Assembly: GCA_030427805.1 (NCBI GenBank)
Contig: JAUICP010000002.1
Span: 496,001 to 560,000, forward strand
Direction of reading: 5' to 3'
From: Bdellovibrionia bacterium
GTDB lineage: Bacteria; Bdellovibrionota; Bdellovibrionia; Bdellovibrionales; JAGQZY01
DNA: 64,000 bases
The notes under the pieces are model-generated. The model was not told the DNA's origin. It searched no databases and saw nothing but the letters and a program-made list of their open reading frames with translations. Position 1 is the first letter of the stretch. Each line of letters starts with the position of its first letter. Of the stretch, positions 7,587 through 17,437 are shown piece after piece. The position numbers were made by a program, and so were the translations under genes.

Positions 7587-9251
7587 TTATAAATCCCAGT
7601 ACTCAACAGCGGAAGTCCCCGAAAATCGGTGTCCCGACAAAGTGTACTTCTTCATACCCTTAGGAGTCACAGAAATTTCCGCTCGATAGTAGAGTGGGAT
7701 CTCTGGAACTTCACGACTATAAATGCCAATAAACTCATGGGCGAGTTTGATTCTTCTTTTCATATCAAACTCTTTTTCGATTTTATTGATAACCGTATCG
7801 GCCTTTTTATCGCTCCACGAACTCCAGTTGTTTCCAGCAAATCCATTCTTTTTTGTGGGAATTCCGTTTGAGTGATAGAAGTCTGCAATACTCTGTTCAG
7901 GCATAAAGGTAAAAGCAAACATACCCATTCCTTCAACCTTGAGCTTTGGCAGGCTATCACCAAAGAAAACTCGAGCTTGTTGGTTTTGAATTTTCACTTC
8001 AACTCCAACTTTCTTCAATTGGTCTTGTAAGAAGACTTGAACCGTCTCTCTGGTTTTATTACCAGCAGTCGTTGCCAATTCAAAACTGAGTTTTTTACCG
8101 TCTTTATAGCGGTATCCATCTTTACCCATCTTCCAGCCAGCATCATCAAGAAGTTGATTTGCCTTTTTACGAGAGTGTTTCAACGTGTGGATCAACTTTT
8201 CGTTACCCGTATACCAGGGACTGATCGGTGAAAAAGGGTGATAAGCCACGGGCTGTTTGTTCGAAAACAAAGCTTTAACAAGTGAGTTTCTATTTATAGC
8301 GAAAGCAAGAGCTTGTCTGACTCGAACATCTTTAAATGCATCCACCTTTGCGATATTGAGATCGAGGTGCTCATAGGTCAGACTCGGTTTGAAATTAACA
8401 TTGTAAGGAAGCTTTTCGGCTTTAACTTTTTTCTGGAAGGCTATGGCCTGATCAAAAGTGATACCGACAAATCCAATCATATCGATCGTTTTTGATCTAA
8501 GGTTGGCCTCGAGACTGGCCGTATTTGTGATAGTCTTAAAAATGATAGTATCGATTTTTGCTTTTGGTCCGTAAAAGTGAGGGTTTCTTTCAACCTTTAC
8601 AAACTCACGTAACTTAACATCGGTAATTCTATAGGGTCCACTAAAGAGACCGGGGTTTGTTGGGTTTTTAATGAAGTTGGTGTTTTTTGCATAGCCTTCC
8701 ATCGTCCCTTTGTGCTTTTCAAAAACAGGGCCTTCGATATGTTTTGGTAAGACATAGAAAAGTCCCATACGGTTATAGGACCAACTGGCATTCTTGTAGT
8801 GAATTGAAAATTTCTTAGGATTTTTCTTATCGACGACAACCTTTTCGATATTTCGATAATCGTCCATCTGCGAATGGGGAACATTGGGATGTGTGGCTAC
8901 CTTAAAACTAAAGACCACATCGTGACCTGTTACGGGTTTGCCGTCTCCCCACTTAGCTTTTTCTTTAATTTCCCAGTCGGCGACGATTTTCTTATTTTTA
9001 CCCTTACCGACAAAACGGGCTTTACCATTTTCGATGGACGGAGTGTACTTAGCCAACTGGGGCTCCCATTTGCCATCGACAGTCAAAACATTCAAAGTTC
9101 GCCCCACAGAACGATAGATATAATCACCCACTATCATTTTAGATAGAAATGGATGAAGAGTGTCTGGCTCCTGCGAAGAACCAATTCTCAGGGTTTTTCC
9201 GAAAGCAGACGCGCTCAAAAACAATAAAACTAGAACAATAGAAATTTTCAC
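7587..9251 (-). CDS. periplasmic substrate-binding protein of a peptide-type ABC importer (SBP family 5)
   Basis: This 554-residue protein belongs to the OppA/DppA-type family 5 binding proteins. A signal peptide is clear (MKISIVLVLLFLSASAFG) without a lipobox, so it should be a soluble periplasmic protein. The mature start has the family pattern (LRIGSSQEPDTLHPF), followed by WKWGDGKPVTGHDVVFSFK-like text (here AKWGDGKPVTGHDVVFSFK) and RVRQALAFAINRNSLVKALF, which are standard family 5 features. First gene of the importer operon. The intergenic gap upstream (9252-9419) contains the yceI terminator and must hold the promoter; I see no sigma-54 match there. Confidence 0.94.
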   Translation of the reverse strand: MKISIVLVLLFLSASAFGKTLRIGSSQEPDTLHPFLSKMIVGDYIYRSVGRTLNVLTVDGKWEPQLAKYTPSIENGKARFVGKGKNKKIVADWEIKEKAKWGDGKPVTGHDVVFSFKVATHPNVPHSQMDDYRNIEKVVVDKKNPKKFSIHYKNASWSYNRMGLFYVLPKHIEGPVFEKHKGTMEGYAKNTNFIKNPTNPGLFSGPYRITDVKLREFVKVERNPHFYGPKAKIDTIIFKTITNTASLEANLRSKTIDMIGFVGITFDQAIAFQKKVKAEKLPYNVNFKPSLTYEHLDLNIAKVDAFKDVRVRQALAFAINRNSLVKALFSNKQPVAYHPFSPISPWYTGNEKLIHTLKHSRKKANQLLDDAGWKMGKDGYRYKDGKKLSFELATTAGNKTRETVQVFLQDQLKKVGVEVKIQNQQARVFFGDSLPKLKVEGMGMFAFTFMPEQSIADFYHSNGIPTKKNGFAGNNWSSWSDKKADTVINKIEKEFDMKRRIKLAHEFIGIYSREVPEIPLYYRAEISVTPKGMKKYTLSGHRFSGTSAVEYWDL

Positions 9252-9364
9252 AATACACTCCCTAAAAATAGCCTCTGATTGATAACAACCCCAGGGCCCC
9301 TAAACAAGCCACAGACTCAATTTAATAGATATTACAGTATTTAAGACCGATTCCGAGGAATCGC

Positions 9365-9395
9365 AAAAAAAAACCCAGTACAAACTGGGCTTTTT
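9365..9395 (-). terminator. intrinsic terminator after the YceI-like gene
   Basis: On the minus strand CCCAGT pairs with ACTGGG across a 4-base loop and is followed by nine T. The T run on the opposite flank means it could also work weakly on the plus strand. Confidence 0.85.
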
Positions 9396-9419
9396 CTGAC
9401 AACAAATGTTCCTATTTTG

Positions 9420-10034
9420 TTATTTTTTCTTAGAAAGAGGGGCCGCGAGAGCCATCTTTATCTCAATCTTGTCGTCAATGACCTTGTCTTTGGCCGTTTT
9501 AACGAGATTCGGAAAGACCGTCTTTGAATTATACTTCACATCAAACTGGGAACGATCGAAGGTCAATGTACCCGTGGCAATCCACATTCCATCCTTTTTT
9601 GTAACGTCCATTACAATTTTAGCTGGCTTGGTCTTACCGCGAATCGTAAGGTCTCCCTCAAATTCATACTTATTGGGAGTCTTTTTTCCAGCCACCGTTT
9701 CAATGTTAATAATTTTAAATGTGGCTGTCGGATGTTTATCGACGGCAAAGAAATCGTCATCTTTTAAATGACCGACTAATTTTTTCTTCATGTCATCGGA
9801 CATCTTATCAGTGGTTTCAATGGAAGCCATGTCGATCACAATTTCGCCACCAATAATCTTGTCTTTCTCAACGTCGATGAAACCCTTTTTAACCTTTACG
9901 GTTCCTACGTGATTATCAGAATTAAAAAGCTTAGTACCCTTCCAGTAAATTTGTGATTTCTCAGTATCGAGATTCAATTTAGCAAAGGCGCTAAGAGCAA
10001 ATAAAAATACAAATAAACCCATTATTATTTTCAT
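9420..10034 (-). CDS. YceI family periplasmic protein
   Basis: A 204-residue YceI-family protein, a small secreted beta-barrel (lipocalin-like) that binds isoprenoid-type lipids in studied members. The ATG at 10034 is chosen because AAGGAG lies 7 bases upstream and it gives a clean signal peptide (MKIIMGLFVFLFALSAFA); an ATG ten codons earlier would bury that site. The mature protein starts with the family pattern LNLDTEKSQIYWKGTK and contains FEGDLTIRGKTKPAKIVMDV and DFFAVDKHPTATF, both diagnostic. It follows the aminomutase gene after 47 bases and ends at a strong terminator. Physiological role not known. Confidence 0.92.
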   Translation of the reverse strand: MKIIMGLFVFLFALSAFAKLNLDTEKSQIYWKGTKLFNSDNHVGTVKVKKGFIDVEKDKIIGGEIVIDMASIETTDKMSDDMKKKLVGHLKDDDFFAVDKHPTATFKIINIETVAGKKTPNKYEFEGDLTIRGKTKPAKIVMDVTKKDGMWIATGTLTFDRSQFDVKYNSKTVFPNLVKTAKDKVIDDKIEIKMALAAPLSKKK

Positions 10035-10081
10035 GTGAAAACTCCTTAAAAAATACAGTAGCAATGTTTCCCGTGATCGAC

Positions 10082-11170
10082 CTAAAAGTCACTAGAAATA
10101 GGCTCTCGCCCAAATGAGTCAACGGACTCCCACTCTTTCAAGTAGTTTTTATAATCCATAGGAGGATGCATCAACTCCCTGGGAGGATTGATATATTCCG
10201 ATTCGAGACCATCAAACCCCTTGAGGACAATTTTTTGATCAGATTCAGATTTTACAAAAGGCGGAGCAAAACCCGCCTTACCACCACCATCAGGAATATC
10301 CAGGGAGAGCCCTGGCATGGCTAAGCCCGAAGCTCTCCCCCAAAGGGCCTCTTGGAGCTCTCGGGACTGGCCAAAATGAGTTCGCAAATGATCGGTACCG
10401 ATCGAGGGGTCACATTGATGCATGTAATAGGGTTTGACCCGCAAATAAAGAAGCCGCCTTGATAGGGCGTAAATCACCGCGGGGTGATTATTCACACCAT
10501 TGAGTAAGACCATTTGATTAAAAACGGGATGGCCGTGATCAACGAAACGCTCAAGAGCTTCGGCCGCCTCAAGTGTAAGTTCTTTGGGATGATTAAAGTG
10601 GCTCATAATATAAACGGGCTTATAACGCCTCAACATCACGGCAAGGTCTTCAGTCACCCGCATGGGATTCACAACAGGAATGCGAGTACCTATTCGAATC
10701 AATTCCACATGTTCGATCTCTCTTAAATCAGAAAGAACCTTCTCGAGTTTTGCATCAGACAGTGTCAACGGATCTCCACCACTGAGTATGACTTCTCTGA
10801 TTGAAGGTGTATTTTTGATGTAAGCCAAGGCATCTTCGTATTCTTTAGGACTCGCTAAAAAACTCTCCCGACCCGTAAAATGTTTTCTCGTGCAATAACG
10901 ACAATAGACACTACAAAAATCCGTAATAAGTAAAAGACAGCGATCGGCATAGCGATGGATAATTCGATCGACAGGGCGATTCTTTTTTTTGCGCTCCCCC
11001 AGTGGGTCGAGCATTTCTTGGTAAGCCTCAGCACTTTCACTGGCATGGGGCATAAGTATTTTTCGAATCGGCCCACCGGGCGCTTCGTCTTGGGCGAGTT
11101 TTGCATAATAGGGAGTCACCCGAATCTGAAAATTTTTATTTTCAAACCCCTTTTCTTCTTCGGGGCTCAA
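10082..11170 (-). CDS. kamA: lysine 2,3-aminomutase family radical SAM enzyme (start probably further upstream)
   Basis: Radical SAM, PLP-dependent aminomutase converting L-lysine to beta-lysine. The cluster motif is CSVYCRYC (CxxxCxxC), preceded by HRYADRCLLLITD as in KamA. The lysine-binding aspartates are in YMHQCDPSIG and LDIPDGGGK; the PLP lysine is plausibly in the latter. It resembles KamA more than EpmB of the EF-P pathway. The given start is TTG at 11170, the last ATG/GTG/TTG in frame, but 39 more in-frame codons upstream (to 11287) encode DWSSPVWQNKNSLRTLEDF, which matches the conserved family N-terminus. The true start is therefore probably ATT at 11287 with AGGAG 8 bases upstream (see findings). 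Beta-lysine could serve as osmolyte precursor or antibiotic/protein modification substrate. Confidence 0.9.
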   Translation of the reverse strand: MSPEEEKGFENKNFQIRVTPYYAKLAQDEAPGGPIRKILMPHASESAEAYQEMLDPLGERKKKNRPVDRIIHRYADRCLLLITDFCSVYCRYCTRKHFTGRESFLASPKEYEDALAYIKNTPSIREVILSGGDPLTLSDAKLEKVLSDLREIEHVELIRIGTRIPVVNPMRVTEDLAVMLRRYKPVYIMSHFNHPKELTLEAAEALERFVDHGHPVFNQMVLLNGVNNHPAVIYALSRRLLYLRVKPYYMHQCDPSIGTDHLRTHFGQSRELQEALWGRASGLAMPGLSLDIPDGGGKAGFAPPFVKSESDQKIVLKGFDGLESEYINPPRELMHPPMDYKNYLKEWESVDSFGREPISSDF

Positions 11171-11552
11171 CCTGAAATACTCGCGAAAGTCTTCAAGAGT
11201 TCTCAGGCTGTTTTTATTCTGCCAAACTGGTGACGACCAGTCCGATTGAGAAATATGGGGTAATGGACCCAGCGCTTGAAAACGAATAAATCACTCTCCT
11301 GGTGGTTTTCCGGGTCCCATTGAAATGGACTCAGAAGAAAATAAAGCTCAATGAGAACTTCAAATTTATCGTCTACCCCATCCTTAGTTTTTAGTCACCC
11401 CTCTAAGAGTTCTACATCTGACGATATTTTTGACAGGCCAAAATCTGAGGGAAACTTTCGTATTTTCAGTACCTTAGTAGTTTGGCCTCTTTGGTTTAGT
11501 TTTTGGATTAGTAGAGGGCGTAGCCTTGAAATCGCTATAAAGGATGGAAGAC

Positions 11553-13172
11553 ATGAAGACAAATTCGAAAACACAATCTTACTTAACGCTGGCACTCTTC
11601 TTAGTGCTCGGCCTTCAGGTCTCATTCCCTTGGATGAAAGATAGCCTAAAGAATTTGGACCTGGCCTCTGAAGAGACTTCTTCAATCGGCGAGCGTACCA
11701 TTCGCATCTGTGGGGTCGATCACCGTTTTGCTTTCTACAGAAACAGTGGTGAAAATGAAATTCGCATGAGCATCCGCGGAGCTGATGGTCTCGAATCAAC
11801 CTGCTCTGAATGTCAGACGCGAGTCCTTGGCTTTCAAGGTCGACAGGTTGAAGGGATCGATACTGAACAACTCTTCTTTGGAATCAACGACGCCGCCAGT
11901 GCAAACCTGAGTGACCTTACTGACATCGTCATCGCCTCTCTCGATCAAGTCGTTAGAGATCAGGTTATGAGTGCCTATGGAGATGGCTGTGAAGATGCCG
12001 AAATCGAAGACGAGGAAGACCCCTCTCACAATAGAACTCGTCTCACCGAACGACAACGGGATGAGATTTTTAGTTGTAACTTGGTTGAAGACTCTAGAGA
12101 AGAAGATGGAGTCAGATCACCAACGGTCGATGAAAGAGCCAGTTGTCGCCTCAGACTTCTCAACGATATTGCCGAGGGACGTGTTGATAAGGACGATCTC
12201 GATCGTGATATTCGTTCAGCGAGAGACTTTAGAGATTTCATCAGAGATTTAGCAGCCCCTACAGAAGACCTAATTGAGGATTTACTCGAATCAGACGACT
12301 CATCTGATGTTCAAGATGGCGTTCGACTCGCAAGAGAATTGGAGCGAGCCGTATCAAGAGCCTTTCGCTCTTCGGTCGCCAATCGTCTTCTCGCCGATGG
12401 TGCTCGTCGTATCACGAGTGCATCCTTAGAAGAGTACCGAGAAGACTACAGTGAGCGCATGCAAGCCCGTATCAGCCAGGGTGAGTACCGTAGAAGCCTC
12501 GCCGATGTAACGGGCGAAATCGAAGACCTCAATGGCGAGTCCGATAGACTTTGGGATCGCTACGGTCGCTACAATGATTACGCTCGAGATCTTATCCAAA
12601 GAGGTCTTGAAATTCATACCAATGGTAGTTTAGCCGACCGAATTCGTTTTAATGCTGAAATGGCAGACCTGAGAAGAGTCCGCCCAGAATATGTTGACGC
12701 CGTTAACGCTTTCTTACGCGAGCACGATCGAATTTGGACCGGTCGCGAAGGTGTTCTCGATCGCCTCGAAGGATTGAGTAGCACCGAATTAGCTGCCCTC
12801 AGTGAATACTCTCGAATTTTCGGAAGAGACACCATTTCTGGATATCGCGATGATTTTTACTCACTTTACGACCAAGTCAATCGCATCGGTATGATGAATG
12901 ATGACATTCGCGACGGTACCTATCGTCCCGACGGCATGAGTATCGCCAACCTTTATACTACAAGAACGACTACGGGTTTACTCGCACAAGGTGGGCAAAG
13001 CTTAATCACTGCTCTTCCACAGCCTAATATCGGTTGGACGACCCAAGACATAAGAAACATCATGTCTCGTGTCCCCTCAGATCCGATGCGCTCACGAACA
13101 GCGGCAGATCGTCGCGTAGAAACCGGTCGCAGCGGAATTCCACGGGCCGGAATGCCAGTGAGAACTCTATAG
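11553..13172 (+). CDS. exported Asp/Arg-rich protein of unknown function
   Basis: I do not recognise this 539-residue protein. ATG at 11553 is preferred over 11544 because AAGGA lies 8 bases upstream of it. An N-terminal hydrophobic segment (SYLTLALFLVLGLQVSF) suggests a signal peptide or anchor. The protein is strikingly rich in Asp, Glu and Arg (for example DKDDLDRDIRSARDFRDFIR) and mostly helical. Four cysteines lie in the first 110 residues after the anchor (C at CGVDHRF, CSECQT), suggesting disulfides or metal binding in the periplasm. It ends at a strong terminator. The 265-380 bases upstream hold no other gene and must carry its promoter; no clear sigma-54 or sigma-70 match was seen there. 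Confidence 0.82.
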   Translation: MKTNSKTQSYLTLALFLVLGLQVSFPWMKDSLKNLDLASEETSSIGERTIRICGVDHRFAFYRNSGENEIRMSIRGADGLESTCSECQTRVLGFQGRQVEGIDTEQLFFGINDAASANLSDLTDIVIASLDQVVRDQVMSAYGDGCEDAEIEDEEDPSHNRTRLTERQRDEIFSCNLVEDSREEDGVRSPTVDERASCRLRLLNDIAEGRVDKDDLDRDIRSARDFRDFIRDLAAPTEDLIEDLLESDDSSDVQDGVRLARELERAVSRAFRSSVANRLLADGARRITSASLEEYREDYSERMQARISQGEYRRSLADVTGEIEDLNGESDRLWDRYGRYNDYARDLIQRGLEIHTNGSLADRIRFNAEMADLRRVRPEYVDAVNAFLREHDRIWTGREGVLDRLEGLSSTELAALSEYSRIFGRDTISGYRDDFYSLYDQVNRIGMMNDDIRDGTYRPDGMSIANLYTTRTTTGLLAQGGQSLITALPQPNIGWTTQDIRNIMSRVPSDPMRSRTAADRRVETGRSGIPRAGMPVRTL

Positions 13173-16651: not shown

Positions 16652-17437
16652 CTAGTTCTCTATGACCCCGAGAATATCGTTTTCATTAATTAATAAAAGT
16701 TCTTCTCCGAGAAGTTGAATCGTATTTCCGCTAAAACGTCGATACATCACTTCATCTCCGAGCTGAACGTCGAATTGTTTCTTATGGCCATGCTTATCTC
16801 TACGGCCTTTTCCAAGACTCACGATGGTCCCCTTTTCTGGTACCGTTCGTGAAGATTCGGGAATAATAATACCACCGCTGGTTTCATCGGCCGCCGCAGC
16901 GGGCACTAAAAGAATGCGATCTTCGAGAGGAGAAAAGAACTCCTGAAAAACCTTAGGATCTGTTGAAGCCTGTTTTTTCTTAGCTGAAGACCCTCCCATT
17001 AAATGGGACTGTCTGCCCTGACTTTTAGCTTTTGCGCTCGGTTTCTTCTTAGGAGTCGCCTTTTGAGCCGGCTTTTTCGTTGCCGGTTTTTTTGCTGCTT
17101 TTTTAGTCACTTTCTTTTTAGTGGCCTTTTTGCTTACTTTTTTCTTAGCAGCCTTCTTAGACGCTTTTTTAGTCGCCTTTTTCTTAGCAGACTTCTTAGG
17201 CGCTTTCTTCTTTGCGGCCTTTTTGCTCACTTTTTTCTTGGCAGCCTTTTTCTTTGTGGTCTTCTTTTTAGCAACCTTCTTTTTTGCTGCTTTTTTGGTC
17301 ACCTTCTTCTTGGAGACCTTCTTTTTAGCCGCTTTCTTGGCAGTCTTCTTAGTCGTTTTCTTCTTTGCAGCCTTTTTTGATGATTTTCTCGGCGACTTTT
17401 TTACCGCTTTTTTCTTGGTCTTTCTCTTAGTAGCCAC
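16652..17437 (-). CDS. fusion of a histone-H1-like Lys/Ala repeat tail and a GroES (Cpn10) domain
   Basis: A 261-residue chimera. Residues 1-139 are nearly all Lys, Ala, Thr, Ser and Val in short KKAAKKK-type repeats like bacterial H1-like DNA-binding proteins. Residues 169-261 are a recognisable Cpn10 domain: PLEDRILLVPA, the mobile-loop text ETSGGIIIPESS, GTIVSLGKGR, VQLGDEVMYRRFSG and INENDILGVIE line up in order with GroES. The GGIIIP tip that contacts GroEL is intact, so binding to a chaperonin is plausible, while the tail should bind nucleic acid. No groEL is adjacent. GTG start at 17437 overlaps the upstream DUF507 gene by 11 bases, making a three-gene operon. Function of the fusion is unknown to me. 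Confidence 0.9.
   Translation of the reverse strand: MATKRKTKKKAVKKSPRKSSKKAAKKKTTKKTAKKAAKKKVSKKKVTKKAAKKKVAKKKTTKKKAAKKKVSKKAAKKKAPKKSAKKKATKKASKKAAKKKVSKKATKKKVTKKAAKKPATKKPAQKATPKKKPSAKAKSQGRQSHLMGGSSAKKKQASTDPKVFQEFFSPLEDRILLVPAAAADETSGGIIIPESSRTVPEKGTIVSLGKGRRDKHGHKKQFDVQLGDEVMYRRFSGNTIQLLGEELLLINENDILGVIEN

Follow-up and report, generated by a model that had tools for sequence, protein, structure and literature searches.

A lysine 2,3-aminomutase family gene (kamA-like) on the minus strand of a 64,000-nucleotide stretch of a Bdellovibrionia genome, hereafter the window, is predicted to be translated from an AUU codon, with an extended Shine-Dalgarno (SD) sequence offsetting the weakness of the codon; we place the probability of this reading at roughly 0.86. 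AUU is a rare and normally weak start codon. The original prediction had inferred ATT initiation, with readthrough of a TGA codon as its alternative, and initiation at ATT is now strongly favored by conservation of the codon, its spacing, the predicted SD duplex and a control with infC. An AUU start behind a strong SD is a known type of initiation site, to which the kamA-like gene adds a new case, in an enzyme gene. Coordinates are collected in Table 1.

Table 1. Features at the 5' end of the kamA-like gene (positions in the window).
Feature	Position	Strand	Remarks
kamA-like gene of the lysine 2,3-aminomutase family; CDS proposed to begin at ATT	10082..11287	-	401 codons + TAG
Proposed AUU start codon	11285..11287	-	invariant in sister species
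In-frame UGA closing the frame upstream	11291..11293	-	inside the extended SD
Extended SD, AGGAG-a-GTGAT, one bulged A	11290..11300	-	AGGAG core 11300-11296, 8 bases from ATT
GTG one base out of frame	11292..11294	-	site where most orthologues start; AGGAG 1 base off
First in-frame canonical start, TTG	11168..11170	-	rejected as start; within conserved coding sequence
Possible leader ORF, MGPGKPPGE-stop, 9 codons	11291..11320	-	ends 3 bases before ATT; without an SD of its own
Intergenic region between this gene and a divergent one (11544-13172, +)	11291..11543	.	13/250 bases changed vs sister species in 11294-11543

The kamA-like frame, read on the minus strand, is uninterrupted between the TGA at 11293-11291 and the TAG at 10084-10082. 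The TGA is followed by TTT ATT CGT TTT CAA, with the ATT at 11287-11285, and no in-frame ATG, GTG or TTG occurs between the TGA and the TTG at 11170-11168. The claim that the coding sequence runs past every ATG, GTG and TTG is therefore borne out: the TTG is the first canonical in-frame start, and the stretch from the ATT to the codon preceding it comprises 39 codons. The peptide said to be encoded there, DWSSPVWQNKNSLRTLEDF, is present, and the conserved KamA N-terminus proposed upstream of the TTG is represented by a DW...WQ motif shared with a solved lysine 2,3-aminomutase. Gene callers limited to ATG, GTG and TTG would clip 38-39 conserved residues from the product.

Evidence that this upstream stretch is coding comes from comparison with one sister species (G001), the genus being represented by two species in total. 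The sister genome was assembled separately, is approximately 92% identical over the aligned stretch and carries the same kamA frame, with a protein 96% identical. Within 11290-11171, i.e. the 40 codons above the TTG, the two species differ by nine substitutions, eight of which are synonymous in the kamA frame, whereas synonymous changed codons number 1/9 and 0/9 in the other two frames. When the same changes are placed at random in 11290-11171, eight synonymous out of nine has a null probability of approximately 2e-5. This pattern indicates that the kamA frame above the TTG is coding, with purifying selection reaching at least as far as the codon at 11272. The bases from 11314 to 11271, spanning the SD, the TGA and the ATT, are identical in the sister species with no indel; as the start stretch is free of substitutions, its identity is no measure of selection on the ATT itself. 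The next near-cognate codon downstream of the ATT, the CTG at 11272, is CTT in the sister species and is thereby ruled out as a start. ATT is the only conserved near-cognate codon at SD distance.

The sequence preceding the ATT has exceptional complementarity to the ribosome of this organism. The 16S rRNA of this genome (L146) ends GGATCACCTCCTTT, and the 20 bases before the ATT are predicted to form 10-11 pairs with this tail, with one bulged A, at -12.8 to -14.1 kcal/mol. We compared this duplex with those at 312 genes in 464 kb of the genome, using the genome's own 16S 3' end; no gene (0/312) had an SD helix as strong as -12.8 kcal/mol at its first start, and 4/312 did when the best start within the first 60 codons was taken. 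Internal in-frame ATT codons equalled the duplex in 6 of 3991 cases. The AGGAG reported 8 bases ahead of the ATT is indeed found there, and this spacing lies within the optimum of the genome, where the distance from AGGAG to in-frame ATG codons peaks at 5-8 bases (33 of the 52 with spacing 0-20). No usable canonical start, an ATT conserved at SD distance in two species and a strong SD, the features expected of a near-cognate start, coincide at this site. The long helix, formed by AGGAG, the bulged A and GTGAT, would position the AUU at the P site of the ribosome, compensating for the weak AUU codon-anticodon match. The product would be a 401-residue KamA-family enzyme beginning fMet-Arg-Phe-Gln-Ala (peptide start MRFQALGPLPHISQSDWSSPVWQNK).

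The gene infC, a classical example of a gene with a near-cognate start, serves as a control. In this genome and in the sister species, an ATT behind AGGAGG is the only SD-backed start of infC, and the gene of this genome appears to start at that ATT. Across the order, 30 of 36 infC matches were examined (L114, L147-L175), and 28 of the 30 have ATT, ATC or ATA behind a strong SD, with very variable N-terminal tails; the exceptions are L159, which has ATG, and L175, which gave none. A genome-wide class of SD-backed ATT starts was not seen in the 464 kb, where in-frame ATT with AGGAG at 5-8 bases occurs in 4/805 cases, approximately the chance level. Over the remainder of the 464 kb, 432 frames of at least 100 codons yielded seven further near-cognate codons that have a strong SD and precede the first canonical start. 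Five of them are followed immediately by the canonical start; it comes nine codons on from an ATC at C1:268116 and 16 codons on from a CTG at C1:350599, and a 39-codon gap like that of the kamA-like gene is found in none of the seven. The last of these (G000:C1:350599, minus strand, L140) is a 482-codon frame with its first canonical start at codon 36 and the CTG at codon 20, where the SD reaches -11.8 kcal/mol; this CTG is a possible second near-cognate start.

Several alternatives can be weighed against direct initiation at the AUU. The one with the best, though small, chance is translational coupling, in which the AUU would be used mainly by ribosomes just finishing the leader MGPGKPPGE three bases upstream. 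The in-frame ATG that had been noted nine codons upstream of the TGA is present at 11320-11318 and is followed by MGPGKPPGE and the TGA; the leader is conserved with one synonymous change. However, the leader ATG has no SD of note (-2.2 kcal/mol), chance alone would place an ATG in an open stretch of 19 codons approximately one time in four, and no similar leader was found in 96 other loci, of which 4/96 have an upstream Pro-Pro ORF that differs in sequence and place.

The second alternative arises from where orthologues start. A kamA match was found in 103 of the 118 genomes searched (own included). The orthologue start set consists of 99 non-duplicate frames, 98 of them anchored on the W...WQ motif; the starts exclude L099, which has no motif anchor, and eight loci that duplicate others (own, sister and repeated records), and the partial or distant matches of G034, G045, G061 and G092 lie outside the set. 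An ATG, GTG or TTG occurs 30 to 10 codons ahead of the first Trp in 96 of the 98 anchored orthologues, the exceptions being the sister species and L105, with ATG at -31. With 96/98 having an ordinary start and the sister species among the exceptions, the absence of one is characteristic of this genus. The start lies at -18 relative to the conserved Trp in 58/98, which makes those proteins two residues longer than one begun at the ATT; in this genus that position is occupied by the in-frame TGA, with the GTG one base out of frame. Translation could begin at the GTG (11294-11292) and shift by +1 on the TTTT run downstream, giving MIYSFQALGPLP..., with its Met aligned to the -18 start of orthologues. 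The coincidence with the usual start position, a Tyr at -16 similar to the common Phe, and the presence of the TTTT run in both species are consistent with such a route. Against it, the AGGAG lies 1 base from the GTG (-7.4 kcal/mol), a spacing seen in 0/52 ATG, 0/14 GTG and 0/24 TTG codons with AGGAG at 0-20 bases in this genome; neither a stop codon nor an SD accompanies the TTTT run, and 8/9 changed codons are non-synonymous in the GTG frame. Moreover, the GTG has an explanation in the SD extension: the extended SD includes both the TGA and the GTG, and their presence thus requires neither frameshifting nor readthrough. We regard this route as improbable. The original prediction had also named, as a finding that would count against it, an orthologue ATG aligning where this sequence has an indel. 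This is partly echoed in that most orthologues do start where this genus has the out-of-frame GTG, but there is no indel relative to the sister species, and the GTG, with its AGGAG 1 base off, belongs to the SD.

The remaining alternatives have very little probability. Reading through the UGA with Trp or selenocysteine, from the ATG at 11320, would use a start that is in frame, with the single change between the species in that stretch synonymous, but it is disfavored by the lack of an SD at this ATG, by the position of the TGA inside the SD of the ATT, by the ten further residues, which orthologues do not need, and by the genome, in which no SelB over the family cut-off was found. Initiation at the TTG at 11170, the choice a gene caller would make and the first canonical start codon, would make the upstream similarity a relic; it is countered by the purifying selection upstream, by the upstream motif, which lies within the alignment to the solved structure 2a5h beginning at query residue 12, and by an SD of -2.5 kcal/mol. 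An assembly base error or indel concealing an ordinary ATG, for which the ordinary starts of orthologues nearby might speak, is scarcely credible given identical bases at 11314-11271 in the separately assembled sister genome.

AUU initiation remains the preferred reading. No Rfam element matched near the start (0 matches, E up to 1, 9000-12500), no stable RNA structure was found around it (z 0.58), and no sigma-70-like promoter or terminator was found at 11150-11700. Between the two species, the divergent intergenic region 11294-11543 changes less than the adjoining coding sequences (13/250 vs 87/1086 and 103/1626). Many kamA orthologues (e.g. L010, L022, L038, L048) lack an SD and carry a hexamer resembling TATAAT whose first base lies 10-14 bases ahead of the ATG; across 94 sequences, these five positions gave 50 matches vs approximately 3-4 per position elsewhere. 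This distribution suggests that many kamA orthologue mRNAs may be leaderless, and the genus of the window differs from these orthologues in having a strong SD instead. Elsewhere in the window, a gene at 16652-17437 (minus strand) encodes a GroES (Cpn10) domain with a Lys/Ala-rich, histone-H1-like N-terminal tail (L178-L186, L192). An ordinary 109-aa GroES frame is also present in the genome, and relatives have Lys-rich-tailed GroES paralogues, several of them on the kamA contig within approximately 3-10 kb of kamA.

The product belongs to the KamA family of radical SAM proteins, scoring 280.3 bits against TIGR00238 (cut-off 199.2), with Radical_SAM and LAM_C domains over cut-off, and the genome has no other KamA-family match. 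A single solved relative was found, lysine 2,3-aminomutase (PDB 2a5h; query 12-369, E 2.8e-98), with which CSVYCRYC and DGGGK align; we take CSVYCRYC to be the C-x3-C-x2-C cluster motif and GGGK to be the PLP region. Although it aligns with KamA/AblA 2a5h over these residues, the protein differs in falling below the NCBIfam AblA equivalog cut-off (TIGR03820, 363.9 vs 525.4 bits). It shares a superfamily with EpmB, the aminomutase of EF-P beta-lysylation, and is below that cut-off as well (TIGR03821, 228.3 vs 369.3 bits), as it is below further equivalog cut-offs. The enzyme probably makes beta-lysine, perhaps for modification of EF-P. The genome has an EF-P with a VKPGKG loop (L113) and an EpmA-like protein (L108) whose best NCBIfam match, genX, narrowly misses its cut-off (260.3 vs 286.9 bits), and together these make beta-lysine for EF-P plausible. 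EpmA-like proteins (called at best E below 1e-39) occur in 94/103 relatives with a KamA match vs 10/15 without, and their presence in the latter weakens the EF-P link. No EF-P or EpmA genes were found beside kamA in the window or in the loci examined. The EpmA-like gene (L108:1480-2823, minus strand) encodes an N-terminal extension of approximately 130 residues without a Pfam match, and comparable long frames are present in relatives.

Pro-Pro-Gly is an EF-P-dependent stall motif, and the leader MGPGKPPGE overlies the SD. One may imagine that the AUU ties an EF-P-feeding enzyme to the level of IF3 together with infC, while the leader acts as a sensor of EF-P activity; a ribosome delayed on the Pro-Pro-Gly codons would occlude the AUU site, and kamA output would then follow EF-P status. 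We consider this arrangement a long shot. Low, IF3-sensitive synthesis of the kamA product is itself likely under AUU initiation, by analogy with other near-cognate starts: these are reported to reduce yield and to be discriminated by IF3 (published work), and raised IF3 is reported to inhibit non-canonical starts (PMC2268962). The analogy suggests that kamA may be a second IF3-sensitive gene alongside infC in this lineage.

The kamA-like gene would lengthen the short list of bacterial AUU starts. Reported examples include infC and pcnB, and an AUU start has also been invoked to restore lepA in two species (PMC1780047). None of the titles listed by our literature searches, which did not pair the enzyme with Bdellovibrio, concerned a kamA with an AUU start, and we do not claim absence from print. 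As a practical rule, near-cognate initiation is likely where a frame is conserved beyond all its canonical starts and a near-cognate codon follows an exceptional SD. The AUU of E. coli infC and the other near-cognate infC starts resemble that of kamA in lying behind a strong SD, whereas the kamA target is a metabolic or modification enzyme rather than IF3, and direct autoregulation would not be the logic. E. coli pcnB is, like kamA, an enzyme gene with an AUU start, one reported to lower expression (PMC1780047); the enzyme is different, and the case for kamA is comparative. In S. aureus, non-canonical starts are reported to carry extended SDs that aid their recognition (PMC13009471). Those of cvfC1 (AUU) and ccpN (AUA) were shown by ribosome profiling and reporters, whereas that of kamA is predicted from sequence and has a helix with one bulged A; the sites in all three genes combine conservation of the non-canonical codon with an extended SD that pairs close to it (PMC13009471 for the former two).
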